Assembly: GCA_025435555.1 (NCBI GenBank)
Contig: JAIWWG010000157.1
Span: 1 to 49,412 of the forward strand
Direction: 5' to 3'
Length of the DNA stretch: 49,412 bases
From: Chytriomyces cf. hyalinus JEL632
Taxonomy: Eukaryota > Chytridiomycota > Chytridiomycetes > Chytridiales > Chytriomycetaceae
The notes below the pieces were generated by a model. It was not told the DNA's origin. It saw nothing but the letters and a program-made list of their open reading frames with translations, and did not search any database. Shown here one piece after another: positions 16,529-39,038 of the stretch (its first letter is position 1; each line of letters opens with the position of its first letter). The position numbers and the translations under genes are program-made.

Positions 16529-16600
16529 TGCCCATTGGCGGGATTGATCCACCGACCTTTGCATTACAAGTGCAACGCTCTACCACTGAGCTAAACGGGC
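16529..16600 (-). tRNA. tRNA-Thr (anticodon TGT)
   Basis: A 72-nt cloverleaf on the minus strand, including the discriminator base. Acceptor stem GCCCGTT pairs with AATGGGC; the D arm is GCTC AGTGGTA GAGC; the anticodon arm TTGCA-CTTGTAA-TGCAA shows anticodon TGT; the T arm is GGTGG-ATCAATC-CCGCC. The T loop begins with A instead of T, in both copies of this tRNA. A T-run follows after a few bases. The gene is identical to the copy at 38663-38734. It lies between the start of the cytochrome b561 gene and the broken start of DPH5. Confidence 0.95.
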
Positions 16601-20150: not shown

Positions 20151-20310
20151 TACCTGAAACAAAATTTGTGAGTTATGCCGTAAATTTACGTGAATGTGAC
20201 GAAAAACCTTCCAAGTGAAACCATCAATCAATTTGCATTCAAAACACGGTGCCTCTGTTTCATCTTGATGGACAATTTTCCTCGTAACAAGCGCGTAATG
20301 GACTCCATAA
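20151..20310 (+). promoter_or_regulatory. Promoter of GPI-protein gene copy 1
   Basis: TGAAACA occurs at 20155-20161 and, inverted, at 20256-20262. The palindrome CGTAAATTTACG lies at 20179-20190. A TATA-like CATAAAA begins at 20306, about 76 bp before the ATG. The same motif set is found in the copy 2 promoter, although the surrounding sequence differs. Confidence 0.45.
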
Positions 20311-20381
20311 AAGCGTTGGAGTACCAACAATGGAATCCACCAGAAACAAACACTCACACCAAAACAAAACTCACAACAAAC

Positions 20382-21958
20382 ATGTTCATCCAAGTCCTCT
20401 CCCTCGTCGCAGCTACCAAGCTCGCATCGGCCACTGCAGTAGCTCCCAACCCAATCTTCCAGTTCGGCACACTCCCTTACGACCCAACAAACTCTCAAGT
20501 CCTCTTTTACATGGACATTTCAAAATGCGGCCCTCAGCTCCCAGCAACCAATAGTTCCTCCTCTTTGCTCCCCATCAACATGATCCAAAGCCCCGGTAGT
20601 ACTGGTGGTGACCCGGCCGGGATCGAGTTCCAGTTCAACAACTACGGACAACACATTTGTTTCCCGCAGTGTCCACCCATTGCCAGTGCTGACGAGTTCA
20701 CGGCGTTCATGGCAACGTTTAATCCTACCGTGAAGCAAGTGAATGGCGTGTGTACTGTAGTTTTGCCGTGGGATTTGGATAACAGTTTGGTGGCCAACTG
20801 TTTTGCAAAGAGTCAAAACAAATTGAGCGGGTGAGTGATATTTTGGTGCTTGTTCTTTATATTTGTTGCTAACAACACGTTCATTTCAGACCCACACGGT
20901 TCCTGGCTCAGAAAGACAAACTGCGCGCCAGTGGTTCATACAACCTCGAGTTCGAGTTCACTGGAGACGCTTTGACTACCTCTGCCAAAGCCACCAATGT
21001 TGTCGGTGCCATCACTGCCGGTTTCACAGTCAACAACCTCGACTACAACAGCGACGGTGCCGGAACCCTCAAGTTCCAAATCGATGCTACCATGGACACC
21101 AACTCTCCCGCTGATGCAGAGGTCCGTTATGTCACGGGACTTGATAACGCACCCACGAGTGCAAACATTCCCAAGTTGGCGAAAGTGGATGCGAGCGGTT
21201 TCAGCTACTCTACCAAAGTGACCTGTATCCCCAGCGAGAACCCAAACCAAGTTTCCAGCTACTCGTATCTTGGTACCGCTCGCTCATGCATCAAGGCCAG
21301 CGCCAAAAACGGTGACACCGCCGCCGACTGTGATAAACGTGTCCCACAGCAGTTCCAAATCACATTCAGCCTCGACTCCACCTGCAAAGTGTCTTACAAA
21401 ATCAAAAACAACATTGTCACTGCCGCCGTCACGGACCCGTCCAGCGCCAACCCATCGACCAAGCTCTTTGCACAGAGCACGTGGAACTTGTCGCTTAAAT
21501 CCGACTTCTTGAAGGCTGCTGGTTTTAGAATTGAAACTCTTGGATTGACCATTTCCACGGGGGGCAAGACTGCTACAGTTGACCCAACTTGTTTGCCAGT
21601 CATGGTCAAATCTGCACAAACTGAGGCTGGGAACACGCTCCTCGCATTCGCCGCAAACCCATTGGACAAGGCTGCCACTTTCCCAACCACCATCAATTGC
21701 GCCAACGGTAAAATGGACGCGTTCATTTTGGCTACCGTCACGGATTATACTTTTGGAGTCAACATGCGTTTCATGGATGCCAAGAGTTTGAGAGGATATA
21801 AGCGTGATGGAAACTCGTCCAATGTTCCAGAGACTGGCGCTGTTACGTTTACGGCGACTGTTGACGGTGTTTCGAACTTGGCTTCCGCGGGTAGTTCGAT
21901 GAGTGTTGGAGGTGCTGCTGCTGCGCTTTTTGCGGGTTTGATGGCGTTGGCTGCTTGA
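20382..21958 (+). CDS. Predicted GPI-anchored secreted protein, copy 1
   Basis: No family recognised. Two exons, 20382-20830 and 20890-21958, with a 59-bp GT-AG intron, give 505 residues. The N terminus (MFIQVLSLVAATKLASATA) is a signal peptide. The mature part is rich in Thr, Ser, Asn, Ala and has at least ten Cys in spaced pairs, with putative N-glycosylation sites. The C terminus is Ser/Gly/Ala-rich followed by a hydrophobic run (AAAALFAGLMALAA), as in GPI-attachment signals. Together this suggests a cell-surface or cell-wall protein. Coding exon 2 and the 3' flank are identical to copy 2 as far as I can see. Confidence 0.75.
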
Positions 21959-22172
21959 AACTGAGCGATTTTGTTGGTTGGGGACTTTACAGTTGAAGGA
22001 GCAGTTGTATCTATTCATTTGAGCTCCTCTGTTTCAATAAACGTTTCATGGATTGTTGTACCTGACCCTTCAATGTATAACGTCGGTGCACTGATAGGAG
22101 CTACCATCATGAGAATTGACGCAGACTGGATAAAATACGACGCGTCTCATATCCCCAGAACCTGCAAAGCTA

Positions 22173-25100: not shown

Positions 25101-25410
25101 CTGTTTCATTACCTGAAACGTTATTTGCGGCTTAATGCCGTAACCTTACGCAAAGGATTCACGCAAACCAATTCCCTTATTCTCAACAGATCATTCTCAG
25201 CAGAACAGCTTTAACCCGCGGCGCCATCCTACATGCGTCACCTGCGAAACCCGCTTCGCTTGCTCGGGAGTGAGTCGAGTACCATGTCTGTTAGACCCCA
25301 AAAAACCTTCAAAGTGAAACAATGAATTTGCTCAAAATTTCTCCACCTTAGCTAATCGTAAACACGATACCGCTGTTTCATCTTAGCTCAGAAAATACCG
25401 TATAAAAGCA
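25101..25410 (+). promoter_or_regulatory. Promoter of GPI-protein gene copy 2
   Basis: TGAAACA occurs at 25315-25321 and, inverted, at 25102-25108 and 25374-25380. GTTTCA and TGAAAC form an inverted pair with a 5-bp spacer at 25103-25119. CGTAACCTTACG, the same half-sites as the palindrome in copy 1, lies at 25139-25150. TATAAAA is at 25401, 76 bp before the ATG. Confidence 0.5.
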
Positions 25411-25476
25411 ATTGACTACCAACCCGAATCTATCAGAAACAAACACTCACACCACACACAAAAACTCACAACAAAC

Positions 25477-27053
25477 ATGTTGATCCAAGTCCTCTCCCTC
25501 GTCGCAGCTACCAAGCTCGCATCGGCCACTGCAGTAGCTCCCAACCCAATCTTCCAGTTCGGCACACTCCCTTACGACCCAACAAACTCTCAAGTCCTCT
25601 TTTACATGGACATTTCAAAATGCGGCCCTCAGCTCCCAGCAACCAATAGTTCCTCCTCTTTGCTCCCCATCAACATGATCCAAAGCCCCGGTAGTACTGG
25701 TGGTGACCCGGCCGGGATCGAGTTCCAGTTCAACAACTACGGACAACACATTTGTTTCCCGCAGTGTCCACCCATCGCCAGCGCTGACGAGTTCACGGCG
25801 TTCATGGCAACGTTTAATCCTACCGTGAAGCAAGTGAATGGCGTGTGTACTGTAGTTTTGCCGTGGGATTTGGATAACAGTTTGGTGGCCAACTGTTTTG
25901 CAAAGAGTCAAAACAAATTGAGCGGGTGAGTGATATTTTGGTGCTTGTTCTTTATATTTGTTGCTAACAACACGTTCATTTCAGACCCACACGGTTCCTG
26001 GCTCAGAAAGACAAACTGCGCGCCAGTGGTTCATACAACCTCGAGTTCGAGTTCACTGGAGACGCTTTGACTACCTCTGCCAAAGCCACCAATGTTGTCG
26101 GTGCCATCACTGCCGGTTTCACAGTCAACAACCTCGACTACAACAGCGACGGTGCCGGAACCCTCAAGTTCCAAATCGATGCTACCATGGACACCAACTC
26201 TCCCGCTGATGCAGAGGTCCGTTATGTCACGGGACTTGATAACGCACCCACGAGTGCAAACATTCCCAAGTTGGCGAAAGTGGATGCGAGCGGTTTCAGC
26301 TACTCTACCAAAGTGACCTGTATCCCCAGCGAGAACCCAAACCAAGTTTCCAGCTACTCGTATCTTGGTACCGCTCGCTCATGCATCAAGGCCAGCGCCA
26401 AAAACGGTGACACCGCCGCCGACTGTGATAAACGTGTCCCACAGCAGTTCCAAATCACATTCAGCCTCGACTCCACCTGCAAAGTGTCTTACAAAATCAA
26501 AAACAACATTGTCACTGCCGCCGTCACGGACCCGTCCAGCGCCAACCCATCGACCAAGCTCTTTGCACAGAGCACGTGGAACTTGTCGCTTAAATCCGAC
26601 TTCTTGAAGGCTGCTGGTTTTAGAATTGAAACTCTTGGATTGACCATTTCCACGGGGGGCAAGACTGCTACAGTTGACCCAACTTGTTTGCCAGTCATGG
26701 TCAAATCTGCACAAACTGAGGCTGGGAACACGCTCCTCGCATTCGCCGCAAACCCATTGGACAAGGCTGCCACTTTCCCAACCACCATCAATTGCGCCAA
26801 CGGTAAAATGGACGCGTTCATTTTGGCTACCGTCACGGATTATACTTTTGGAGTCAACATGCGTTTCATGGATGCCAAGAGTTTGAGAGGATATAAGCGT
26901 GATGGAAACTCGTCCAATGTTCCAGAGACTGGCGCTGTTACGTTTACGGCGACTGTTGACGGTGTTTCGAACTTGGCTTCCGCGGGTAGTTCGATGAGTG
27001 TTGGAGGTGCTGCTGCTGCGCTTTTTGCGGGTTTGATGGCGTTGGCTGCTTGA
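25477..27053 (+). CDS. Predicted GPI-anchored secreted protein, copy 2
   Basis: Exons 25477-25925 and 25985-27053, 505 residues, differing from copy 1 in the third residue (Leu for Phe) and in two silent bases in exon 1 near 25776 and 25782. Signal peptide, Cys-rich Thr/Ser/Ala-rich body and hydrophobic C terminus are as in copy 1. The near-identical block runs from the ATG to 27242, about 190 bp past the stop (copy 1: 20382-22147), while the promoters are clearly diverged. This points to recent duplication with promoter replacement, or to ongoing gene conversion. Confidence 0.75.
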
Positions 27054-27242
27054 AACTGAGCGATTTTGTTGGTTGGGGACTTTACAGTTGAAGGAGCAGT
27101 TGTATCTATTCATTTGAGCTCCTCTGTTTCAATAAACGTTTCATGGATTGTTGTACCTGACCCTTCAATGTATAACGTCGGTGCACTGATAGGAGCTACC
27201 ATCATGAGAATTGACGCAGACTGGATAAAATACGACGCGTCT

Positions 27243-27926
27243 CCGCTGGGCTATTCAACAAAATCCGTGTTTTTGAAGCACCGCAGATGTTCAGCATATT
27301 GAATCTTAATGGCACATTCCGATTTCTGTCGTGTAACGTAAATAACCCTGTCTTCCAGACCTGACTTCCAAATTCTTACGTGTCATTTCTTTTAATTACC
27401 TTCGATGCTTTTTCGCAGCGAAAGTTTCTCATCAACTAAATTTCCCCCGCTTGTTTTTTTGAACCAATTCCAACACACCAAAATCTCTCCCTTTGTCACG
27501 ATTCATGGATCAAGTTCGTTGTAGATACACCTTCGGTGACTTTATCTGAGCTACAGCCTATGAAAGCTCAGGGAAGGAGGGCGTTGCACCATCATTGTTT
27601 CAAACTGAAACCGGTGCCATTTGATCGAAATTTAATCGACCAAGAATAAAGTCTGTGAACACCTGACTTTATACTTCCTTTATTGAACATAAACACGAGA
27701 GACTGCGTCAAACTCTGACACCCTTCTAATCTCTGAACTATTTTCCAACTGTTTCACCTTGTGATTAGTTACCAGAAACTCCTATTTAAGCCTGCCTTTT
27801 TTCGTCAAGATCAGTCTCTCCATAACTCACCTACTACCCTCTGTCTCTCTTCTGCTCGAAAGCAGTCCAAGTCCAGCCTCTGAATAGTCGAACAGCCTGT
27901 TTAAGGAACAGACTAATGCTCTCTCT
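27243..27926. other. Intergenic, with a possible old LTR remnant
   Basis: No gene seen. At 27780-27830, CTATTTAAGC followed by AAGATCAGTCTC resembles the TATA and start region of the neighbouring Ty3-type LTR (28128-28175), so the right half may be an older related solo LTR. Its ends could not be fixed. Confidence 0.3.
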
Positions 27927-28347
27927 CTTCGTGTTACGTAATCAACTCGATTCCGTCACGCGTCTCTAATTGAGAACAATGGACACTCTTTTTCTTGACC
28001 GTACACAATGACATCACCTCCACAATGCCTCATCACCAATCGTTTCTTGACTGTACACAATGACATCACCTCCACAACGCCTCATCACCAATTGTTTCTT
28101 TCCTCTTTATTCAGTAACGCTATTTAAAGCGCACGTTATCACTTCAATAAAGATCAGTCTCCTCTCAATCTTCTCTCTGTTCTTAGCACTCTCCAACTCA
28201 ATCCAAACTCCTTAATTGATCACGTAGCCACGCCGCAGCTCTTGGTCAATTCCCTATCAATTGGTAGCATCGGAAATCCCTCCATCCAAGAAACCTCCAA
28301 CCAACCGTCTAAGTCCCAAAGAAATACTTGCCTTCCAGCCGTCCATA

Positions 28348-29502
28348 ATGAACCCAGAAACCCCAAATGACCGTAATCAAGACCACATCATCCAGCAGTA
28401 CGAAACTCAGTTGGCCCAACTGACTGAAGCTGTCCAAAGACTGTTTGCTGAAGTAACTACCCTACGTGAACGCGAACCTCTCAACCCTCCAGTACCAGTA
28501 CCAGCCCCAACTATCAACCAGGTCATCCTGGACGAATCTAATGCCCCAGTCCCAGCTCAACGTCGACTACCTATCTTCAGAATGCCATCAATCAAACCTC
28601 TCGAATTCTCTGGGAACCATCGAAATAGGCCAGCCCACGAAATACAGAACTACCTCGACGATTACCTCAATCGCTCATCCTCAACCTGCAGACTCCATGG
28701 TTTCGCTCTATCTACTGACCACATTACTAAACAAGACCAACCAACATACGTACATTTTGTCTCCGAAGGCCTATGCAGTAACGCACGCATATACTGGCGC
28801 CGCCTGTCCGAAACAGAACGATTCTATATGTCCTGGAACGAATACGCCGCCTGGATCAAGAGAACTTTCGGTTCTCATCTGAGCTTGAAACAAGCTATCG
28901 AAGCCATGGAGGACCTCCAACAAACCAGCTCAGCAGTAACCTACTCCTGCAAATTCAATGAACTTGTCTCTGCCATTGCCGCCTCAGGAATCGATTACCC
29001 AGCCAGGCATCTCTGCGTCAAATACCTCCAAGGTCTCAAGTTCCACATCCGTAGTAATTCTGCCATTTTTGCTATTGAAGACAATCTTGACCACCTTCAG
29101 TATGAAGCTGAGAAACTTGATGATCTCACCTACCGCCACAATAAACGTACCGCCGCCGACACTCGTAAAAATACCGCAACTTCCTCCACCACACGCACAC
29201 AGTCCTTTCGACCAGCCCAAGGCCATACACTCAAGAACTCCATCCCCGACTCATCCGACCCTATGGACCTTGGAAACACTCAGCAAACATCTCCCTACCC
29301 ACGTCTCACCCCAGAACAGAAAGCCCACTTCCGCTCCAGAGGTTGGTGCGTCTACTGCCAAGCCAAGGACCACGACACCGACCACTGCCCCAAGCTCCGT
29401 GCCCGTCAAGCCCAGCTCTCTGCCAAGCCATCCACTTCCAGAATTAACAATGCCGCAACTCAAGCCCAAGATGAAGAAGAAGATAGCGATCACGAACTCT
29501 AA
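28348..29502 (+). CDS. Gag of element 1
   Basis: Structural polyprotein that packages the retrotransposon RNA. The frame begins upstream, but the first ATG is at 28348, giving 384 residues. A retrotransposon gag helical domain spans roughly residues 95-260, with the motif RLSETERFYMSW. A single CCHC zinc knuckle, CVYCQAKDHDTDHC, lies near residue 340. The end is acidic. Pol lies in the +1 frame and overlaps the 3' part of gag, as in Ty3. Confidence 0.88.
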   Translation: MNPETPNDRNQDHIIQQYETQLAQLTEAVQRLFAEVTTLREREPLNPPVPVPAPTINQVILDESNAPVPAQRRLPIFRMPSIKPLEFSGNHRNRPAHEIQNYLDDYLNRSSSTCRLHGFALSTDHITKQDQPTYVHFVSEGLCSNARIYWRRLSETERFYMSWNEYAAWIKRTFGSHLSLKQAIEAMEDLQQTSSAVTYSCKFNELVSAIAASGIDYPARHLCVKYLQGLKFHIRSNSAIFAIEDNLDHLQYEAEKLDDLTYRHNKRTAADTRKNTATSSTTRTQSFRPAQGHTLKNSIPDSSDPMDLGNTQQTSPYPRLTPEQKAHFRSRGWCVYCQAKDHDTDHCPKLRARQAQLSAKPSTSRINNAATQAQDEEEDSDHEL

Positions 29503-32500
29503 TTGTTTCTCCGCCTTGCCCTTTGATAATCCACCTGACAATCTAACTGCCGTTACCGTCCCTGCTTTTCCTGTCCAAGTCCCACGTCCCAAGCGCCCCC
29601 TGTACCACGTCAAGTCTGAACACCATGCCCCATATTCTGACACTCCTGGCCTCCTCATCTGCCAAGGAACCATCAACAATCATCATGTTTCCATCCTCAT
29701 TGACTCTGGTGCCAACCCCAGTTTCATCCGTTCCAACCTACCGTTCCTCCAAGATAAATCTCTCATTCCTCAGGCCTGCAAGATCAAGCTAGCTGATGGA
29801 TCCATAGTTAAGGGCCAGCGTACCGAAACCCTTAAACTGAAAATAAATGACACTACCTTTAGCAACTCTCGCTCTTTCACTACCGTTCCTGAACTCGCGT
29901 ATGACCTGATCCTCGGAAAGGACTGGCTTGACGCCCACAATCCCTCTATCGACTGGCCGACAAACCAAGTCCGCATTGGTCCACACAGCTGGAAATGCCG
30001 CTCCCCACGCTCCACGCCGGAGATCCTTACTGCCAACCAATTTCTGAACCTCCTTGAAACCCTACAGCCTGATGACTTCCTTGGTGCCATAATACCTGAA
30101 GAACAAGAAGTATCAACCACCACTACCTCAGCCGAGATCGACGAAAAAGATGAAGCTGTCCGCAAGTCCCTCCCTCCTAACGTCCAAGAACTGGTCTCCA
30201 AGTACCCAGATGTCTTCGCGCCTTTTGAAGGCCTTCCTCCGTCCCGACCTACTGACATGAAAATTGACCTCGATCCAACAGCAAGTGCTGAACCTCCCTA
30301 CCGACCCATCTATCCCATGAGCGCTCCAGAACTGAAGGCTCTTCAAGAAGAACTTACCTACCTCCTCAAGCATCACCGCATCAGACCTTCCACCTCGCCC
30401 TTTGGCGCTCCTGTCTTCTTTGTCAAACAGAAAGACAAACTCCGCCTTGTATTTGACTACCGCGCCATCAACAGACTGACCGTCAAGAACCGCGCCGCCC
30501 TTCCCAACATCCTAGAATCCCTCGACCGCCTCTCCAAGGCCAAATTCTTTACCAAAGCCGACTGCAAGTCCGGTTTCCATCAAATCAGGATTGTAGAATC
30601 TGACATCCCCAAAACTGCCTTCCGCACTAAATACAGCCACTACGAATGGGTTGTTATGCCCTTTGGCCTCGCCAACGCTCCAGGTGTTTTCCAGACCACA
30701 CTCAGCACAATCTTCCAAGACTTCATTGACGTCTTTGTCATAGTCTACATCGACGACATCCTCATCTTCTCTGACAATGAACAAGACCATCTCCGCCATG
30801 TCGACATGGTACTCCAGCGACTCCAAAACCACAAACTCCACCTACGCCTCTCCAAGTGTTCCTTCTTCCAGACACAACTCGAATATCTCGGTTATCAAAT
30901 CAATAGAGGATCAGTCTCTGTCCTTCCTTCCAGAACTCAGTCCATCAGAGATTTTGAGGAACCTACCTCTTTCTCAGAACTCCGCTCCTTCCTCGGCCTT
31001 GCCAATACTGTCCATCGCTTCATCAAAGGTCACGCCTCACTTGTCGCGCCTCTCTCTGACCTCCTACGAGACCACAAGACTACCTCCTTTACCGACAAAT
31101 GGAATGACACAGCGCGTCATCACTTCCGCGAAATCAAGACCCTCCTCTCATCCCCAGCCATGCTCGCCATCTTCAATCCAGAACTTCCTGTCCACCTGTA
31201 CACTGACTGGTCCGCCCGCGCTGTTGGGGGATACATTGCTCAGCCTGACTCCAATGGCATCGATCAGCCCATCGCCTACTACTCCCGCAAACTCAAGCCA
31301 GAAGAAACTCGTTATCATCCCTACATGGGTGAAATCCTCGCCCTCGTCGAATGTCTCAGATACTACCGTCAGTACCTCCTCGGAAACAACGTCCTCGCCT
31401 TCACAGACCACCAGTCCCTCCGCCACATCCTCACGCAACCCAAGCTCCGCCCTACGATTTCCAGATTCAGTGGACACCGGGGGAGTGGAATACCATTGCT
31501 GACGCACTGTCAAGGCGCCGCTTCGCTACAGATGCATCCGTTCAAGTCAACACCTACAAGAACTCTGTCCACACCATCCTCCAAGTACCAGAATCATACC
31601 TTCTCCTCAATACAACCTCCTTGACAATCACTGATGACCTCACGGCCGACATCAAGGACATGAACACTACCGACCCTCAGTTCCTAGAAATTGCACAATA
31701 CCTTGTTGATCCACTGAATCCAGACACATTCGATAACGACCCATCCAAAGCTCCCAAGCACCTAGTCTCTCAGATAGCACGTTACCGCCTACGAGATGGA
31801 CTCCTCCACTACGTTGACAAGACTCACGCCCGTCTCTACGTCCCAGCCCCTCTCCGTCACTCACTTCTTGAAAAAGCTCACTCTTACGGTCCAGCCATCC
31901 ACAACAACTGGGAACGTACCTCAGAACGACTCACTCGCTACTTCCACTGGCCCAAGCTTCACAGCGACGTCCAGCGCCTTTGCCAAAACTGTGACAACTG
32001 CCAACGCCTCAAGGTAGCTCGTCACGCTCCATACGGACTCCTCCAGCCTCACAATGTCCCACCTTATCCATGGCACACCTGCTCAATGGACTTCATGACC
32101 AAGCTCCCACTCACCAAGTCTGGATACGATTCTCTTATGGTAGTTGTCGACTCTGGAACTAAACGCACAAGACTCATCCCATGCCACACCACCTCTACTG
32201 CACGCGACATTGCCAACCTGTTTGAGTTACACATCTTCCCTCACCACGGCATTCCAGTCCACTTCATCTCTGACCGCGACGTCAAGTTCACCTCCAACTT
32301 CTGGCAAGAACTCTGCAACTCCCTCAAGATAAAGCTCACCATCTCTACCTCCTCGCATCCACAAACTGACGGCCAAACTGAACAAAAGAATGACTGGGTC
32401 CTCCAAGCCCTCCGACATTTTGTCGCCCCTTACCAAGACGACTGGGACGAACATCTGCCAAAGATTGAATTTGGTATCAATGACACCATCAACTCTAGCA

Positions 32501-33144
32501 CTGGCTACACACCTTTCTACCTCGAGTATGGTCGCCATCCTCGCTCCATGATCAACATTAACATGCCCTTCTCTGCTCCTCTGTCCATCAAAGATGTTCG
32601 CGCCGAATATCAAGTTGTCAAAGATCGCATTCGTGACTCACAAGACAAGTACGCAGCCATTGCCAATCGTAAACGTCTTCGCTCGCCATTCCAAGTTGGA
32701 GACCTCGTCCTCATTTCTGCCAAAGAATTCAAGCCTCCCAATCTCCGTTACCGCCAGACAAATAAGCTCTCTGAACAATATTCCGGACCTTACAAGATCA
32801 TTGAACTAGTTGGAGCTGCTCCTTCCTGCAGACTAGCCTTACCTTCAGACTGGGGAGTCCACCCAGTTTTCCATCCTGAGAAACTCAAGCCATATTACTT
32901 CGACACCACCAAACACCCTCTTGAAAGCCAGCCAATTGCCATCTGTACTATTGACAAAGTACTATCACAACGCGTCTTAGACGGCCACCAACAAGTCCTC
33001 GTACAATGGAAAGACCATCACCCTGTGTACAACTGTTGGTTAAATTCCACACCAGAGCTCCTTCGTCGCATCCAGCAAGACAAGCCACAGCCGAGCTCGC
33101 TCCCTTTTTCATCACGTACGCTCTTGGAGGCGGGTGTTACGTAA
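29503..33144 (+). pseudogene. Pol of element 1 (protease, RT, RNase H, integrase), frameshifted in RNase H
   Basis: Domain order is the Ty3/gypsy one. Protease: LIDSGANPSFI (about 29696-29728). Reverse transcriptase: KLRLVFDYRAIN, MPFGLANAPG and YIDDILIFS (about 30747-30774). RNase H: VHLYTDWSARAVGGYIAQ and FTDHQSLRHIL. Near 31456 the sequence skips from KLRP directly to YDFQIQW; compared with element 2, 34 bases are missing, which breaks the frame. The second frame then carries integrase: the HHCC finger with CQNCDNCQ, catalytic D in SMDFMTKLP, second D in FISDRDVKFTS, and E in QTDGQTEQKND. A chromodomain-like block (VLVQWKDHHPVYNCWL) closes the protein; the stop at 33142 lies inside the 3' LTR. 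Confidence 0.9.
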
Positions 33145-33597
33145 TCTGTCGGATTACGTCACGCGTCTCTAATTGAGAACAATGGACACCCTTTTTCTTG
33201 ACCGAACACAATGACACACCCTCCACAATGCCCCATCACCAATCGTTTACTTCCTCTTTATTCTGTAACGCTATTTAAAGCGTGCAATATCACCTCAATA
33301 AAGATCAGTCTCCTCTCAATCTTCTCTCTGTTCTTAGCACTCTCCAACTCAATCCAAACTCCTAAATTGATCACGTAGCCACGCCGCAGCTCTTGGTCAA
33401 TTCCCTATCACTTCGTGTTACGGAAATAAAGCAATGTTGGTTGATAGATGATCTTTATTGGTAGAAGGACACTGGCTTTTATACTGCTGTGGTGAGGGTG
33501 ATTTGAACTTTGTTGTTTTCGAGAAGTTTCTATCTCCGGAATTTTGAAGGAAAAATTAAAGTCAAGTAAAATGGACACAATGGAGGAACTGGCGTTA

Positions 33598-36500
33598 TTA
33601 CGCAACACCCGCCTCCAAGAGCGTACGCGATGAGAAAGGTCGTTGCTTGGGTTCATGTACGTCTTTCTTGAGTCTTTGGCGTAGCTCTGGAGTGGCATCT
33701 AACCAACAGTTGAAAATGGGGCTATGATCCTTCCATTTTATTAGGACCTGAGTTTTTCCTTGAAGTTTCCGCGCCGCGAGCACCGATTCGATGGTTCGTA
33801 AATCTGGCGGGAGCGACTGCAGCGGGTGAGGTTTCGCTGAGTCCCAGTAATACATTTTTAATTTCTCAGGGTGGAAGACCTTGTGGATATTCCATTCATC
33901 AGGAATCTTGAGTCGACACAGCGGAACATCGCCGATCAGCTCTGTGATCTCGTAAGGTCCAGAGTAGCAGTCCGACAATTTCGCGATCGGTCGGTCTTCA
34001 AGAATCTTGGGCCGAAAATCGCGCAACGATAGCAGGACAAGATCTCCGACCTGGAAAGGCGATTCTAGGCGTCGTCGATTGGCAGCGGATGCGTAACGGT
34101 CTTGGGAGTCGCGAATTCTGTCGCATGTGGCTTGGTGAGTGGCTTGTAAATCTCTCAGCGTGAGCGGATCATATGGTGTTAATCCAACATCAATGAATGA
34201 TGCAGGGTGTTGCCCGTATTCCAGATAGTATGGAGTGTAGCCAGTGGTGGAGCTCACAGTGTCATTTATACCGAATTCAACCTTGGGTAAGTGCTCATCC
34301 CAGTCGTCTTGCCAGTAATTAACTTCGGAACGTAGGGCAGAGAGTACCCAGTCGTTCTTTTGCTCGGTTTGCCCGTCGGCTTGGGGATGGTAAGCTGTTG
34401 TCATGGCCAATTCTATCTTGAGAGACTGACACAAAGAATTCCAGAAGTTTGACGTGAACTTTGAGTCTCGGTCACTGATGAATCGTCGAGGGAGTCCGTG
34501 GTGTTTGAATACATCGTTGAAAAAGATGTTTGCAATGTCCTTGGCGGTGGAGGTGTCATGGCAGGGAAAAAGTCGGGTGCGTTTGGTGAAGGAGTCAACA
34601 ATGACCATGAGTGCAGTGTGTCCAGACTTGGTTTGTGGGAGTTTGGTAATAAAATCCATTGAGATGGTGTGCCAAGGGTGTGGTGGGATTGCGTGAGGCT
34701 GGAGCAATCCATACGGGAGTCGTCGTGCAATCTTGTGCCGTTGGCACGCGTCGCAGGATTGGACAAATTGCTGAATGTCTTTGTGGATCTTGGGCCAGTG
34801 GAAATATCTTGTAAGTCTTTCGGCTGTTCGTTCCCAATTGTTGTGAATAACTGGTCCATACGAATGAGCAGATCGAACCAGCTGATTTCGAAGGGGCATT
34901 GGGACGAAAACTCTTGCGTGAGTCTTGTCGGTGTAATACAATAGGCCGCTGTGAAGTTTGTATCTGGAAATCGTATTCTTGAGGGAAGCTGGAACCAATG
35001 CAGGGTCATTCTCGAATGTATCAGGATCTTCTGGGTCGATAAGGTACTTTGAGATTTCTTGGTATTGCGGATCATCTGGGTTCATGGATTTGATGTCATC
35101 CATCAGGTCCTCTGTTATCGAAAGCTCAGTCGCAAATAACTGGTCAGCTTGAGGCTCTTGGATGTTGGAAATTGTCTGATTTACGCCAGGTGAGACTTGA
35201 ATTCCAATTTCTTGAGAGTGCTTTAATCGTGACAGTGCGTCTGCAATCTTGTTCCATTGTCCAGGTTTCCACTGAATCTGGAAGTCGTAAGCAAGAATGT
35301 CGGCAATCCAGCGGTGATGGACTGGGCGAAGTTTTGGCTGGTCAAGGATTCTCCGAAGGGACTGATGGTCCGTGAACACAAAAACTCGGGCATCATGAAC
35401 GTAAGCTCGATGATGTCGTAGTGCTTCGACGAGTGCCAATATTTCTCCTTCATAGGGATGGTATTTCGATTCGGCGTCATTACATTTGCTTGAGTGAAAG
35501 GCTACCGGCTGATCTATCGAATTCTCGTCTGGCTGGGCTACGTAACTGGAGATGGCTCGCTTAGACCAGTCGGTGTACAAGTGGACTGGTTTGTTTGGGT
35601 CAAACATGGCAAGTGAGGATGGGTCAGCTAGGGCTTTCTTGGCTTTCTGAAACAGGTCTTGTGCTTCTTTGGTCCAAACTTGATGGAAAGGTACGGTTTT
35701 GTGTCCTTTAAGGAGGTCTGATAGAGGTGCTAACAGGCTGGCATGATTTCTTACAAAACGGTGGATAGTGTTGGCTAGTCCAAGGAAACCACGTAGATCA
35801 GTAAAGGACTGGGGCTCGTCGTAATTCTGGATGGCCATGTATCGACTTGGTAAGACGCTGATCTTCCCTTGAGAAATCTTGTAACCAAGGTACTCCAATG
35901 ATTCAGTGAAGAATTGACACTTGTGAAGTCGAACATGGAAATTGTTTTCTTGAAGGCGTTGGAGGACTATACTGAGGTGATTCATGTGTTCTGTGTAGGT
36001 CTCGGAGTAGATTAACAGGTCATCAATGTAGCAGGAAAGGAAACGGTTGACCAGGTCGCGAAAAATCGAGTTGATTGTGGCTTGGAAGGTTCCGGGCGCG
36101 TTTGCAAGTCCAAATGGCATCACGATCCATTCGAAATGTCCGTACTTTGTTCGAAATGCAGTCTTGTGTGTGTCGGCAGGTAGAATTCTTATTTGATGGT
36201 AACCAGAGGCAAGGTCAATTTTGCTGAAGAATTTGGCTTTTCCCAGGCGGTCTAGGGACTCCAGAATGTTGGGCAAGGGTGCTCGATTCTTGACAGTGAG
36301 TTTGTTCAATGCTCGGTAGTCAAAAACTAATCTGAGTTTGTCCTTTTGTTTGACAAAGAATACTGGGGCTCCATACGGTGAAATGGATTCTTTGATTCGG
36401 CCATGCTTGAGTAGGAAATCGAGCTCGTCTCGGAGGGTTGACAACTCTTTCTCGTTCATTGGATAAATTGGTCGCCATGGTGGCGTGGATTCTGGGCTTG

Positions 36501-37533
36501 TTTCAATCTTCAGGTCGGTGGTTCTGGATGGAGGGAGTCCCTCGAATGTACTAAACACTTTTGGATAACGATCCAAAAGCTGCTGCAGGTCTGGATTCAA
36601 TTTCGATTTTGCTTCTCTGTCAAGCTGATTGCTATCTTCAGTAGTCAATTGCGAAGGGCCATTCGAAGGCTCGGAAGGAATTAGGACTCCACACAGCATG
36701 TCGTGCATGGGTTTACGGATGATTTTCTTGAACTGTATTGCTGACAGGATCTCTGGAATTTTTCTTGGAGTGGCGCAGGTCCAGGTATGGTTTTTGATCT
36801 TTACGGTATTTGACGGCCAGTCGATAACAGGATTATGTTTGTTTAACCAGTCCTTTCCAAGGATCAGGTCGTAGGCTAGAGACGGGACTGCCGTGAAGGA
36901 ATGGGAATCTTGGAATTCATTGTCTTTGACAATAAAGGGAATTGGGAGGGTACAATGCCCTCGAATCATTGTTTTGTCTGCCAATTTGATCAATACGGTA
37001 CTGGAATTCTTGTCCACGTAGCTGCTGGCATATTTGGATTGAATGAAACTGGGATTGGCTCCAGAGTCAATGAGAATGGATACTGGCTGGTGATTGATTA
37101 CACCTTGGCAAATGAGTAGTCCTGGCTGGTTGGTGCGTTCTTGCAGGTGGTGGAGGGATAGTGTGGCTGCGTTTGTTTGACGGGGGCAATCAGAGGTAAA
37201 ATTTTCCGTTGTTTTGTTTTCTGGTAAGGCTGAGACTGAGGGTAAAGGTTGGCAGGGCTTGCTGAGAACAAGGCTTTCAACAGGCACTTTCATCAATTGT
37301 TGGCTCTGAGTCTGAATCTGCTTGTGTGGCATGATTGACTGAAGGGTGTCTTTCTTGATGGAAGGATCGACTGGGTCGTGGTCTTTCTTCATAGGTAACT
37401 TTGTTCTTGAGCTTGCTACACTTGTCGATTGAATGATCTTTGGACTGACAATAAACACACCATCCTTTTGAACGGTATTCAGCTTTCTGGACTGGAGTGA
37501 GAAGTCTGGAAGGCCTCCCTTGCTGCAGAGCAT
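33598..37533 (-). CDS. Pol of element 2 (protease, RT, RNase H, integrase, chromodomain-like end)
   Basis: One uninterrupted frame of 1311 codons; the true N terminus depends on a +1 frameshift out of gag. Protease LIDSGANPSFI; reverse transcriptase KLRLVFDYRALN, MPFGLANAPG and CYIDDLLIYS; RNase H LYTDWSKRA, E in YEGEILALVEAL, and FTDHQSLRRIL; integrase HHCC finger with CDAC, D in SMDFITKLP, D in FISDRDSKFTS, E in QADGQTEQKND; GPY-type YSGPYEITEL; and chromodomain-like VLIKWKDHSPIFNCWL. All catalytic residues I can check are present. Compared with element 1, it keeps the HHRWIADILA stretch of RNase H. Confidence 0.93.
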   Translation of the reverse strand: MLCSKGGLPDFSLQSRKLNTVQKDGVFIVSPKIIQSTSVASSRTKLPMKKDHDPVDPSIKKDTLQSIMPHKQIQTQSQQLMKVPVESLVLSKPCQPLPSVSALPENKTTENFTSDCPRQTNAATLSLHHLQERTNQPGLLICQGVINHQPVSILIDSGANPSFIQSKYASSYVDKNSSTVLIKLADKTMIRGHCTLPIPFIVKDNEFQDSHSFTAVPSLAYDLILGKDWLNKHNPVIDWPSNTVKIKNHTWTCATPRKIPEILSAIQFKKIIRKPMHDMLCGVLIPSEPSNGPSQLTTEDSNQLDREAKSKLNPDLQQLLDRYPKVFSTFEGLPPSRTTDLKIETSPESTPPWRPIYPMNEKELSTLRDELDFLLKHGRIKESISPYGAPVFFVKQKDKLRLVFDYRALNKLTVKNRAPLPNILESLDRLGKAKFFSKIDLASGYHQIRILPADTHKTAFRTKYGHFEWIVMPFGLANAPGTFQATINSIFRDLVNRFLSCYIDDLLIYSETYTEHMNHLSIVLQRLQENNFHVRLHKCQFFTESLEYLGYKISQGKISVLPSRYMAIQNYDEPQSFTDLRGFLGLANTIHRFVRNHASLLAPLSDLLKGHKTVPFHQVWTKEAQDLFQKAKKALADPSSLAMFDPNKPVHLYTDWSKRAISSYVAQPDENSIDQPVAFHSSKCNDAESKYHPYEGEILALVEALRHHRAYVHDARVFVFTDHQSLRRILDQPKLRPVHHRWIADILAYDFQIQWKPGQWNKIADALSRLKHSQEIGIQVSPGVNQTISNIQEPQADQLFATELSITEDLMDDIKSMNPDDPQYQEISKYLIDPEDPDTFENDPALVPASLKNTISRYKLHSGLLYYTDKTHARVFVPMPLRNQLVRSAHSYGPVIHNNWERTAERLTRYFHWPKIHKDIQQFVQSCDACQRHKIARRLPYGLLQPHAIPPHPWHTISMDFITKLPQTKSGHTALMVIVDSFTKRTRLFPCHDTSTAKDIANIFFNDVFKHHGLPRRFISDRDSKFTSNFWNSLCQSLKIELAMTTAYHPQADGQTEQKNDWVLSALRSEVNYWQDDWDEHLPKVEFGINDTVSSTTGYTPYYLEYGQHPASFIDVGLTPYDPLTLRDLQATHQATCDRIRDSQDRYASAANRRRLESPFQVGDLVLLSLRDFRPKILEDRPIAKLSDCYSGPYEITELIGDVPLCRLKIPDEWNIHKVFHPEKLKMYYWDSAKPHPLQSLPPDLRTIESVLAARKLQGKTQVLIKWKDHSPIFNCWLDATPELRQRLKKDVHEPKQRPFSSRTLLEAGVA

Positions 37534-38443
37534 CTAGGTCCATGGGCTCATTCTGGAAAGGTCCAGGAGAGTGACTGGCTGGAGGAACTTGTTGGGCTTG
37601 GAGCTTGAAACGGTTACGAAGATAGGCTGAGGTCTTGGAACGCATGTTTCGTCGGTAGTACACATCATCAAGGCGTTCTGCTTCTGCTTGGAGCTTACTG
37701 AGGTCACCAGAGATGTTACCGAGTTCTGGAATCACTTGAAGATGTGGCTTGAGTCCATTGAGGTACTTTACACAAAGGAAGGCTTCGGGAAGGTGAACAT
37801 TGGCAGAAGAAGTTGCAGATACTAATTCATTGAAGGCACTTGAGTAGATGACTGCTGATCCTGTTTGCTGAATGGTGTCCAATGCGTCAATGGCTTGGGA
37901 GAGTGCTAGCTGAGATCCGAAACGTTTGTTGATCCATTGGGCGTATTCTGGCCAAGTCATTTCATCTCTTGTTGATTCTGGTAATTGTCTCCAGCGTTGG
38001 CGTGCAGTGTCGGTAAGTCCAGAGGAAACAAATTGAACATATGTCGGTTGGCCATTGTGAGTAATTGAGTTGATATCAGGTGCAAGGTTGTAGAGACGGC
38101 AGTTCTCCAAGTTACGTTCAAGGTAGTCGTCAAGAATGTTCTGGATTTCATGGGCAGGTCTGTTTCCAAGTTTTCCACTGAATGGTAGTGGCTTGATACT
38201 TGGCATACGGAAGTCCTTTCGAGACAGGAGCTTGGTTTCTTCAATTGGTTTTGGTGAGGTTGCAAAGCTGGCAGTGTCACGGGTCTTGAGTGTGTTCATG
38301 AACTGAACAAGTTCATCCAAGGTTGATACAATGTCATTGGTGGTCACAATACGGCCATTTACGTCGGCAAAGAATGTTGAGGCTTGGGAAGCAGCAAATG
38401 GCTCGTTGGTCATGGATTCTGGGCTGGTAGAGGAGGAGGACAT
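37277..38443 (-). CDS. Gag of element 2
   Basis: 388 residues from ATG 38443, five bases beyond the primer-binding site. It has the same layout as Gag of element 1: conserved FRMPSIKPLPFSGKLGNRPA entry to the gag domain, LPESTRDEMTWPEYAQWI, and one CCHC knuckle CVYCQSKDHSIDKC near residue 340. The tail is acidic. It overlaps Pol by at least 250 bp in the +1 frame, so Pol needs frameshifting. Confidence 0.9.
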   Translation of the reverse strand: MSSSSTSPESMTNEPFAASQASTFFADVNGRIVTTNDIVSTLDELVQFMNTLKTRDTASFATSPKPIEETKLLSRKDFRMPSIKPLPFSGKLGNRPAHEIQNILDDYLERNLENCRLYNLAPDINSITHNGQPTYVQFVSSGLTDTARQRWRQLPESTRDEMTWPEYAQWINKRFGSQLALSQAIDALDTIQQTGSAVIYSSAFNELVSATSSANVHLPEAFLCVKYLNGLKPHLQVIPELGNISGDLSKLQAEAERLDDVYYRRNMRSKTSAYLRNRFKLQAQQVPPASHSPGPFQNEPMDLDALQQGRPSRLLTPVQKAEYRSKGWCVYCQSKDHSIDKCSKLKNKVTYEERPRPSRSFHQERHPSVNHATQADSDSEPTIDESAC

Positions 38444-38662
38444 CTAGCCGATGCTACCAAATGTTACGGAAATAAAGCAATGTTGGTTGATAGATGATCT
38501 TTATTGGTAGAAGGACACTGGCTTTTATACTGCTGTGGTGAGGGTGATTTGAACTTTGTTGTTTTCGAGAAGTTTTTATCTCCGGAATTTTGAAGGAAAA
38601 ATTAAAGTCAAGTAAAATGGACACAATGGAGGAACTGGCGTTATTACGCAACACTTCGCAAT

Positions 38663-38734
38663 GCCCGTTTAGCTCAGTGGTAGAGCGTTGCACTTGTAAT
38701 GCAAAGGTCGGTGGATCAATCCCGCCAATGGGCA
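38663..38734 (+). tRNA. tRNA-Thr (anticodon TGT), copy next to the Ty3-type insertions
   Basis: Identical over all 72 nt to the tRNA at 16529-16600: acceptor GCCCGTT/AATGGGC and anticodon loop CTTGTAA. A T-run at 38741-38747 serves as Pol III terminator. The target-site copy CTTCG of element 2 ends only four bases upstream of the first tRNA base. Confidence 0.96.
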
Positions 38735-39038
38735 AACGCATTTTTTTACACTTTTCCACAGCTCATTATGCCTGTCAACAGATCAAACCTGGTGGAAAAG
38801 AAAATGGATCAAGTTTTCAGTTCATTCTTTGTTTGCCCACATGTTCTCAGAATATTCAGTCGTGCTGTCGCCCGTTGAAGAAGGTCAGTACGGTTTGGTT
38901 GATTCCTCAAACAAGAGATCAAGTTCAAAACAAATTGAGAAAAAGGCCATTAAGAGTGCAGACCCGATGCAAGAACAAAACAAGAGAAGAAGGGGAAAAT
39001 GAGTGGGGAAGAGTGAAAAACAAAAAGATAAAAAAAAT
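38735..39038. other. Intergenic, nothing recognised
   Basis: Holds the tRNA terminator T-run and the 3' flank of the OPA3-like gene. No other gene seen. Confidence 0.45.

Follow-up and report, generated by a model that had tools for sequence, protein, structure and literature searches.

Two Ty3/gypsy elements share one five-base target upstream of a tRNA-Thr gene in the chytrid Chytriomyces cf. hyalinus, consistent with targeting of Pol III start sites

The window, a stretch of 49,412 nucleotides from Chytriomyces cf. hyalinus JEL632, contains a tRNA-Thr(UGU) gene on the + strand (38663..38734 according to Rfam, 38662-38735 according to ARAGORN), preceded by three copies of the pentamer CTTCG. 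The outer copy (27927..27931) and the middle one (33411..33415) enclose element E1 (27932-33410, + strand). The middle copy, common to both elements, and the tRNA-proximal one (38654..38658) enclose element E2 (33416-38653, - strand), and only CAAT then separates the last CTTCG from the gene. Given the base composition of the window, three equal pentamers would occupy these fixed positions by chance with a probability of ~1e-6. Rechecking the sequence bore out the original prediction of two oppositely oriented Ty3/gypsy elements filling the gaps between CTTCG copies at these coordinates, the last copy lying 4 bp before the tRNA gene. On the + strand both elements start with TGTTACG; E1 ends with TATCA and E2 with GCAACA. 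The A-box motif of the target gene (38670..38680, +) lies 16 bp, and the B-box motif (38713..38722, +) ~60 bp, past the end of the E2 LTR.

Between their LTRs both elements encode gag followed by protease, reverse transcriptase (RT), RNase H and integrase, the layout of Metaviridae (Ty3/gypsy). E2 is bounded by 192-bp LTRs with a single mismatch between them: the 3' LTR (33416..33607, -), which has 20 other full-length genomic matches at 100%, and the tRNA-proximal 5' LTR (38462..38653, -), identified by LTR match. It carries a gag ORF (37277..38443, -; Retrotrans_gag 3e-9) and a single open pol frame of 1311 aa (33598..37533, -), in which a domain search recognized all four enzymatic domains followed by SH3 and a chromodomain-like region. 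E1 has a gag ORF (28348..29502, +; Retrotrans_gag 1.2e-6) and a pol in two pieces, one with protease, RT and RNase H (28958..31624, +; RVT_1 4.2e-38), the other with integrase, SH3 and a degenerate chromodomain, found by domain search (31351..33144, +). The latter shares 61% identity with E2 across 564 aligned positions. The putative primer-binding site of E1, TGGTAGCATCGG, starts two bases past the LTR (28262..28273, +), and the same 12 bases occur in E2 (38448..38459, -). No 3' end among the collected tRNAs matched the whole site, and a custom pattern search for an initiator tRNA with a matching 3' end gave no match.

In sequence comparisons the closest solved relative of the E2 pol is Ty3 (7q5b, 1e-123), and a profile of the E2 integrase with its full-length relatives matched the same entry at 3.7e-217. 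Ty3 was also the top Foldseek match for the integrase. Within the integrase tail, SH3_Tf2-1 scored above the Pfam cut-off and Chromo below it; fold matches were modest (Z 6-7), and Foldseek with the tail alone returned no match at E below 0.001. We conclude that, like that of yeast Ty3, the tail combines SH3 with a degenerate chromodomain-like fold.

Genomic matches assign the two LTRs of E1 to different subfamilies. The 5' LTR (27932..28259, +) belongs to a 328-bp subfamily, E1L, with at least 27 other full-length matches at 99-100% among those listed, and the 3' LTR (33135..33410, +) to a 276-bp subfamily, E1s, with at least 19 other matches at 99-100% among those listed. Their alignment contains 21 mismatches in 276 aligned bases and 52 gap columns. 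This makes E1 the outlier of 34 LTR pairs, the rest having 0-8 mismatches; the excess arises because its LTRs come from two subfamilies. (The pair with 8 mismatches, on C64, is in fact two solo LTRs.) Informative sites define a switch zone at 32248..32382, with E1L type to the left and E1s type to the right, where 219 E1s-informative sites form one run from 32383 to 33382. In this assembly, E1 is thus a chimera of two young subfamilies, the 328-bp type up to ~32.25 kb and the 276-bp type from ~32.38 kb. Its unequal LTRs are therefore ruled out as a sign of age. A deletion of 34 bp near 31.49 kb, absent from all 39 other copies scored, splits the pol of E1.

Most simply, the chimera would have formed when two E1-type elements stacked in one target were fused by homologous recombination. 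Gene conversion from a distant copy, with no fusion of stacked elements, would also have kept both CTTCG flanks, but the converted tract must span the integrase end and the LTR almost to its terminus. This requirement is not decisive, and we regard conversion as quite possible while leaning against it. The chimera, and possibly the stack too, might instead have been created during assembly, as E1L and E1s bodies are nearly identical (~99% from ~28.6 to 32.25 kb in two comparison copies) and some contigs end at such copies. However, CTTCG is present at all three joints, the deletion in pol is private to E1 among the scored copies, and both outer flanks of the stack align in order to two paralogues of the segment containing the window, C52 and C192. 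An assembly artefact is therefore unlikely, and fusion of stacked elements remains our preferred reading. The paralogues themselves are without E1 and E2. Upstream of E1, genomic matches revealed an LTR-like repeat from a different Ty3-like family (27721..27901, +; approximate ends), whose best 24 other matches are 83-89% identical and of which no copy was detected in paralogous stretches L083 and L085. This relic probably represents an earlier layer of the stack.

An LTR search of the genome yielded 75 E1/E2 insertions, each query contributing its 40 best-scored candidates, a sampling that favours young copies. As many as 42 of them end 6-11 bp upstream of a mature tRNA, representing 14 isotypes, and 13 are stacked on a tRNA-adjacent copy. 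Twelve lie inside other LTR repeats (X and Y), all at one point; one is probably stacked in a rearranged X; one (C173:259735) precedes a lone B-box 59 bp away; and six were placed in no target class. Random insertion 6-11 bp upstream of a tRNA has p = 3e-4 when all 1887 loose tRNA candidates are counted as genes. The expected clustering near tRNA genes was thus found, and with it the prediction that both families share Pol III start-site targeting gained support. Targeting of tRNA genes only, on the other hand, proved too narrow, as X and Y LTRs also serve as targets. Among the 33 sources scanned, Rfam detected only tRNA, with no 5S, U6 or other gene exceeding the gathering score where a site lacked a tRNA. 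Of 15 further tRNA genes, none had E1 or E2 at 6-11 bp, so many tRNA genes may be free; one of the 15 has a partial E2-like LTR further upstream. At a tRNA-Lys gene on C90, E1-like internal sequence begins 16 bp upstream, and no LTR end was visible. Relative to the tRNA (41 sites), E1 has the same orientation in 14 cases and the opposite in 11, and E2 in 3 and 13, respectively; the opposite bias of E2 (13/16) has an uncorrected p of 0.02.

A 5-bp target duplication flanks 30 of 34 paired copies, and two of the four exceptions form a reciprocal pair. Could these copies be a few LTR-tRNA cassettes multiplied by segmental duplication? The segment containing the window does have two paralogues, but these lack both elements, and the sites span 14 isotypes with differing 5-bp duplications and outer flanks. 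The distinct target duplications refute cassette multiplication for most sites, and as a general explanation it is scarcely credible. The flanks of tRNA genes are safe havens, and our survey sees surviving copies only. Insertion could accordingly be random, with only tRNA-adjacent copies escaping selection or silencing. Survival of this kind, however, cannot yield a one-sided 6-bp window or a single point within X and Y LTRs, which renders it extremely improbable.

X and Y are struck where A- and B-box motifs sit at the spacing of a tRNA gene, and the point is the same for the 12 E1/E2 copies and for two copies of E3, the latter found among 40 further X/Y copies. One full Y copy (C172) is a Ty1/copia element of ~7.8 kb with ~5.8 kb between its LTRs (RVT_2 1.1e-56). 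Both repeats have TG...CA ends and 5-bp duplications (GGGAG for X on C73, ATCCT and ATCCC for Y on C226 and C70); these features, together with the internal copia coding in Y, rule out a SINE reading. On C236 and C59, X is kept on one side only. Rfam found no tRNA match at E up to 5 in three Y and three X copies, and in 19 Y and 16 X copies the A- and B-boxes varied to about the same degree as the remainder of the stretch, with no extra conservation found (five of the 40 fetched copies were excluded: two interrupted by E3, three truncated at contig ends). The LTRs of Y, an autonomous-type Ty1/copia element, and of X may carry working type-2 Pol III promoters that recruit TFIIIB and act as genome-wide decoys, catching at least three Ty3 families (E1, E2 and E3) at one point and drawing insertions off tRNA genes. 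We see the case for this as almost evenly balanced, with a slight tilt towards doubt. If true, natural Ty3 insertions would map Pol III initiation inside retrotransposon LTRs; one transposon's promoter would steer the landing of others, and Pol III sites could be detected cheaply from insertion maps.

The positions, duplications, stacks, E1 chimera and shared integrase architecture observed in this assembly fit one explanation, which as a whole we hold to be highly probable. A family preference for the sites where small-RNA genes begin transcription would account for both elements sitting at one five-base target. Integrase would join the cDNA a few bp upstream of Pol III start sites, its SH3/chromodomain tail most likely docking on TFIIIB positioned by A-box/B-box promoters. 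The 5-bp target would be duplicated at insertion, with the tRNA-proximal copy keeping its distance to the gene. The site is thereby regenerated unchanged, so that later elements could insert at the very same bases and build up stacks. The same machinery would strike promoter-like points within X and Y LTRs, where we infer Pol III activity. Targeting might instead rely on direct reading of DNA or on TFIIIC bound to the B-box. The motifs in X and Y, unscored as tRNA by Rfam, and the insertion with only a B-box at 59 bp would suit such a mechanism. Yet insertions keep a fixed offset from the A-box/start side while their distance to the B-box varies, target pentamers differ, and yeast Ty3 is described as sparing TFIIIC-only sites (PMC5911963). 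We consider this route very unlikely and retain TFIIIB as the probable dock.

Pol III targeting is already known from Ty3, Tj1 and Tyl elements; what is new here is the chytrid host and the copia-LTR landing pads. Ty3 of Saccharomyces cerevisiae is reported to share with E1 and E2 the domain order, the tail of SH3 and vestigial chromodomain and the use of Pol III start sites (PMC8632968, PMC5911963). Its LTR, however, is placed ~15-17 bp from the mature tRNA (PMC5014426), compared with 6-11 bp for E1/E2, whose docking on TFIIIB is putative. Tj1 of Schizosaccharomyces japonicus, a Ty3/gypsy element of ~5 kb with a 5-bp duplication, is reported to insert 5-11 bp upstream of mature tRNAs, matching the distance of E1/E2, but in experiments its insertions at Pol III genes had a single orientation, in contrast to both orientations among our genomic copies (PMC4600332). 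Ty3-class elements are also listed beside tRNA genes in Yarrowia (Tyl3, Tyl6, Ylt1) and Candida (Tca8; PMC5911963 Table 1), and co-localize with tRNA genes in the early-diverging fungus Rhizopus oryzae (PMC2699053); the accessible parts of these two sources make no mention of one-target stacks or strikes in other LTRs. Fungal Helenus/TRIMp3 elements resemble X and Y in having LTRs with conserved boxes A and B and 5-bp duplications, but Helenus elements are described as non-autonomous and 311-1263 bp long, unlike the ~7.8-kb Y copy with its copia RT, and use as landing pads goes unmentioned in the accessible text (PMC10886601). The literature searched, with few subscription papers, contained no report of Ty3 elements inserted at Pol III-like motifs within copia LTRs, and none of tRNA targeting in chytrids, which leaves their absence unproven. 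Our findings extend base-pair-precise Pol III targeting to a chytrid, a deep fungal branch. As the integrase has the same SH3-chromodomain tail as Ty3, the targeting may be old and not a yeast invention.

The proposal that the first element regenerated a target copy into which the second then inserted agrees with four other stacks that reuse one 5-bp target exactly (four copies on C64, three each on C188, C213 and C224); in three further stacks the target is shifted by 1-2 bp. In the window, the LTR relic would probably be the oldest layer, followed by the E1 locus and finally E2. The predicted order of the last two stands as likely because E2 lies closest to the tRNA, with the far target copy >5 kb away from the gene. 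The argument from LTR identity, in contrast, fails because E1 is chimeric and each of its halves has an LTR with near-identical copies elsewhere in the genome. LTR age was likewise indecisive in other stacks: on C224 both elements have one LTR difference each. On C184, the full element is the far one. Regenerated targets would explain how tRNA flanks fill with stacked elements, and such stacks would invite recombination, as in the E1 chimera and in an inversion signature seen on C207.

The original prediction placed two Ty3/gypsy elements of opposite orientation in a single 5-bp target, CTTCG, just upstream of tRNA-Thr(UGU). Recomputation on the sequence reproduced its positions for the three CTTCG copies (27927–27931, 33411–33415 and 38654–38658), both elements and the tRNA gene. 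E1 occupies 27932–33410 on the plus strand, and its LTRs measure 328 and 276 bp; E2 occupies 33416–38653 on the minus strand, with one mismatch between its 192-bp LTRs. CAAT and then the tRNA gene directly follow the last CTTCG. Both elements encode gag plus protease–RT–RNase H–integrase. The pol of E2 (1311 aa) is a single open frame, and that of E1 is split by a 34-bp deletion absent from all 39 other copies scored. Two bases inside from the LTR, both elements carry TGGTAGCATCGG, likely the primer site. Among the best 120 of 277 matches listed for E2 integrase, the best, and the closest named relative, comes from the chytrid Chytriomyces confervae (66%), which makes it likely that the host of these elements is a chytrid.

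We searched the assembly (37.8 Mb, 242 contigs) with the LTRs of E2 and of two E1 subfamilies, E1s (276 bp) and E1L (328 bp), scoring the best 40 of 56, 75 and 75 candidates, respectively. The first set comprised 100 fetched stretches, seven of them tRNA stretches picked without an LTR criterion; further stretches were added later. In the first set plus the window, ARAGORN identified 50 tRNA genes. In 41 of these an LTR end lies 6–11 bp upstream (median 8), and none of the 50 has one within 30 bp downstream. A 42nd tRNA-adjacent insertion was found on contig C1, and 14 tRNA isotypes carry insertions. In a tally of 75 E1/E2 units, with classes assigned by hand and the pair on C64 counted as two solo LTRs (otherwise 74), 42 have a tRNA gene as target, 6–11 bp downstream; the predicted clustering near Pol III genes is thus borne out. 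Another 12 are stacked on a tRNA-adjacent E1/E2 copy (one, on C112, truncated), and one (C57) on a copy of a third Ty3 family, E3, itself 8 bp from tRNA-Glu. Two other LTR repeats, X and Y, hold eight and four units, the X cases on C7, C134, C164 and C173:315216 being visible from one side only and that on C236 retaining X on one side only. In one probable case (C59), X is broken by an E3-like element with E2 at that element's other end; one unit precedes a lone B-box (C173:259735), and the remaining six were not assigned to any target class. Among 15 further tRNA genes from the Rfam list, none has E1/E2 at 6–11 bp, and one has a partial E2-like LTR farther upstream. On C90, E1-like internal sequence without an LTR end lies 16 bp upstream of tRNA-Lys. 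At tRNA genes, E2 is oriented against the gene in 13 of 16 cases (uncorrected p = 0.02), and E1 shows no orientation bias (14 same, 11 opposite).

The LTR end lies on average 15.8 bp from the A-box (s.d. 1.06; 38 of the 42 sites gave a match) and 61.7 bp from the B-box (s.d. 3.7). In six Leu/Ser genes, whose variable arms are long, the A-box is still at 15.7 bp, with the B-box at 70. Since the A-box offset stays constant while the B-box moves, insertion position is set from the start-site side, as would be expected if TFIIIB anchors the integrase.

X (873 bp) and Y (989 bp) were discovered through E1/E2 copies without a tRNA gene. Their TG...CA ends and 5-bp duplications identify both as LTRs. 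Genome matches number at least 40 for X and at least 42 for Y (best 40 of 149 and of 155 candidates scored). E1/E2 break X at 318–324 and Y at about 173–178, two Y alignments starting at 161–164 being read as overruns into the inserted element. At these insertions, the E1/E2 LTR ends lie 14–16 bp from an A-box and 59–61 bp from a B-box, a spacing like that at tRNA genes. In a further sample of 20 X and 20 Y copies, picked nearly in rank order and with four X stretches shortened by contig ends, one X and one Y copy are interrupted at the E1/E2 insertion point by sequences 97–98% identical to E3; the other 38 are continuous across it. Rfam gave no tRNA match in the three X and three Y copies scanned, and their A/B boxes are no more conserved than surrounding sequence. 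The insertions are the sole functional hint that these boxes may have Pol III activity. A Y copy on C172 has a copia RT (RVT_2, 1.1e-56) within an internal region of about 5.8 kb, which ends in a purine tract adjoining the next LTR; its LTR pair differs at 4 of 258 compared bases. X LTRs also occur inside E1/E2 copies (C123:75282–75765, C8:94854–95687 and C187:204238–204720); insertion traffic between X and E1/E2 runs both ways.

Upstream-of-tRNA targeting is of a kind already known; the LTR landing pads X and Y are the new part. Such insertion is described for Ty3, Ty3p, Tj1, Tca8, Tyl3, Tyl6, Ylt1 and DGLT-A (PMC5911963), the distance reported for Tj1 being the same as for E1/E2 (PMC4600332), and tRNA genes co-localise with Ty3 elements in Rhizopus oryzae (PMC2699053). 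Ty3 is described as docking on TFIIIB via an SH3 and a vestigial chromodomain (PMC8632968). Short Helenus elements have tRNA-like LTRs, and their author expects Pol II promoters in the autonomous partners (PMC10886601); Y would be an exception to that expectation, if its boxes work.

Stacks in five contigs reuse one target exactly: the window (C65), C188 (ATGTG), C213 (GCTCA), C224 (TCAAC) and C64, where four CGAAA copies separate an E2 LTR, a full E1L and another E2 LTR. On C166, C184 and C223 the target is shifted by 1–2 bp or has one mismatch, and C63 and C112 hold possible stacks, truncated or ambiguous. On C190, an E1s flanked on both sides by TCACT adjoins an E3 LTR. Each insertion duplicates its target, the proximal five bases keep their distance to the gene, and an intact target is thereby restored. 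A common CTTCG is therefore expected, and on the same grounds we infer that E2 was the last insertion in the window.

Against one full E1L copy (C64) and one full E1s copy (C188), the window E1 starts as E1L at 27932 and stays so until about 32247; between 32383 and 33382 it matches E1s, with an unbroken run of 219 E1s-informative sites; from about 28.6 kb the two bodies are nearly alike, and the sparse informative sites there alternate. Among 34 paired copies, only E1 has more than eight LTR mismatches, and only E1 combines a 328-bp with a 276-bp LTR. Normal reverse transcription yields two like LTRs, so the fusion came later than that step, through recombination of stacked copies with each other or through conversion, or else it arose in assembly. 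Strong divergence between the two reference copies is confined to the LTR and integrase end, the bodies being nearly identical, as if E1L and E1s had swapped ends at an earlier time. On C207, opposite-orientation E1L copies (72910–78476 and 116644–122209) have reciprocal flanks (AAGCA/TAACT and mirror), the signature either of recombination between the two copies that inverted about 38 kb or of misassembly. Contigs C164, C173, C189, C50 and C100 end within or beside E1/E2 or X copies, so such repeats may be where the assembly breaks.

Two paralogous segments, on C52 and C192, contain the same inverted tRNA-Thr(UGU) gene pair as the window (16529–16600 and 38663–38734). Left of E1, 27494–27720 aligns to C192 and 27618–27737 to C52; right of E2, alignment begins at 38662 and 38659, and both run in order without E1 or E2. 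Bases right at the insertion junction differ between the window and these paralogues, which are therefore empty-site counterparts at segment level only. At 27721–27901 lies a relic of another LTR-like repeat, for which the paralogous stretches gave no match. The window also contains a 1.84-kb repeat (20307–22148 and 25402–27243), its copies 99.1% identical and about 5.1 kb apart.
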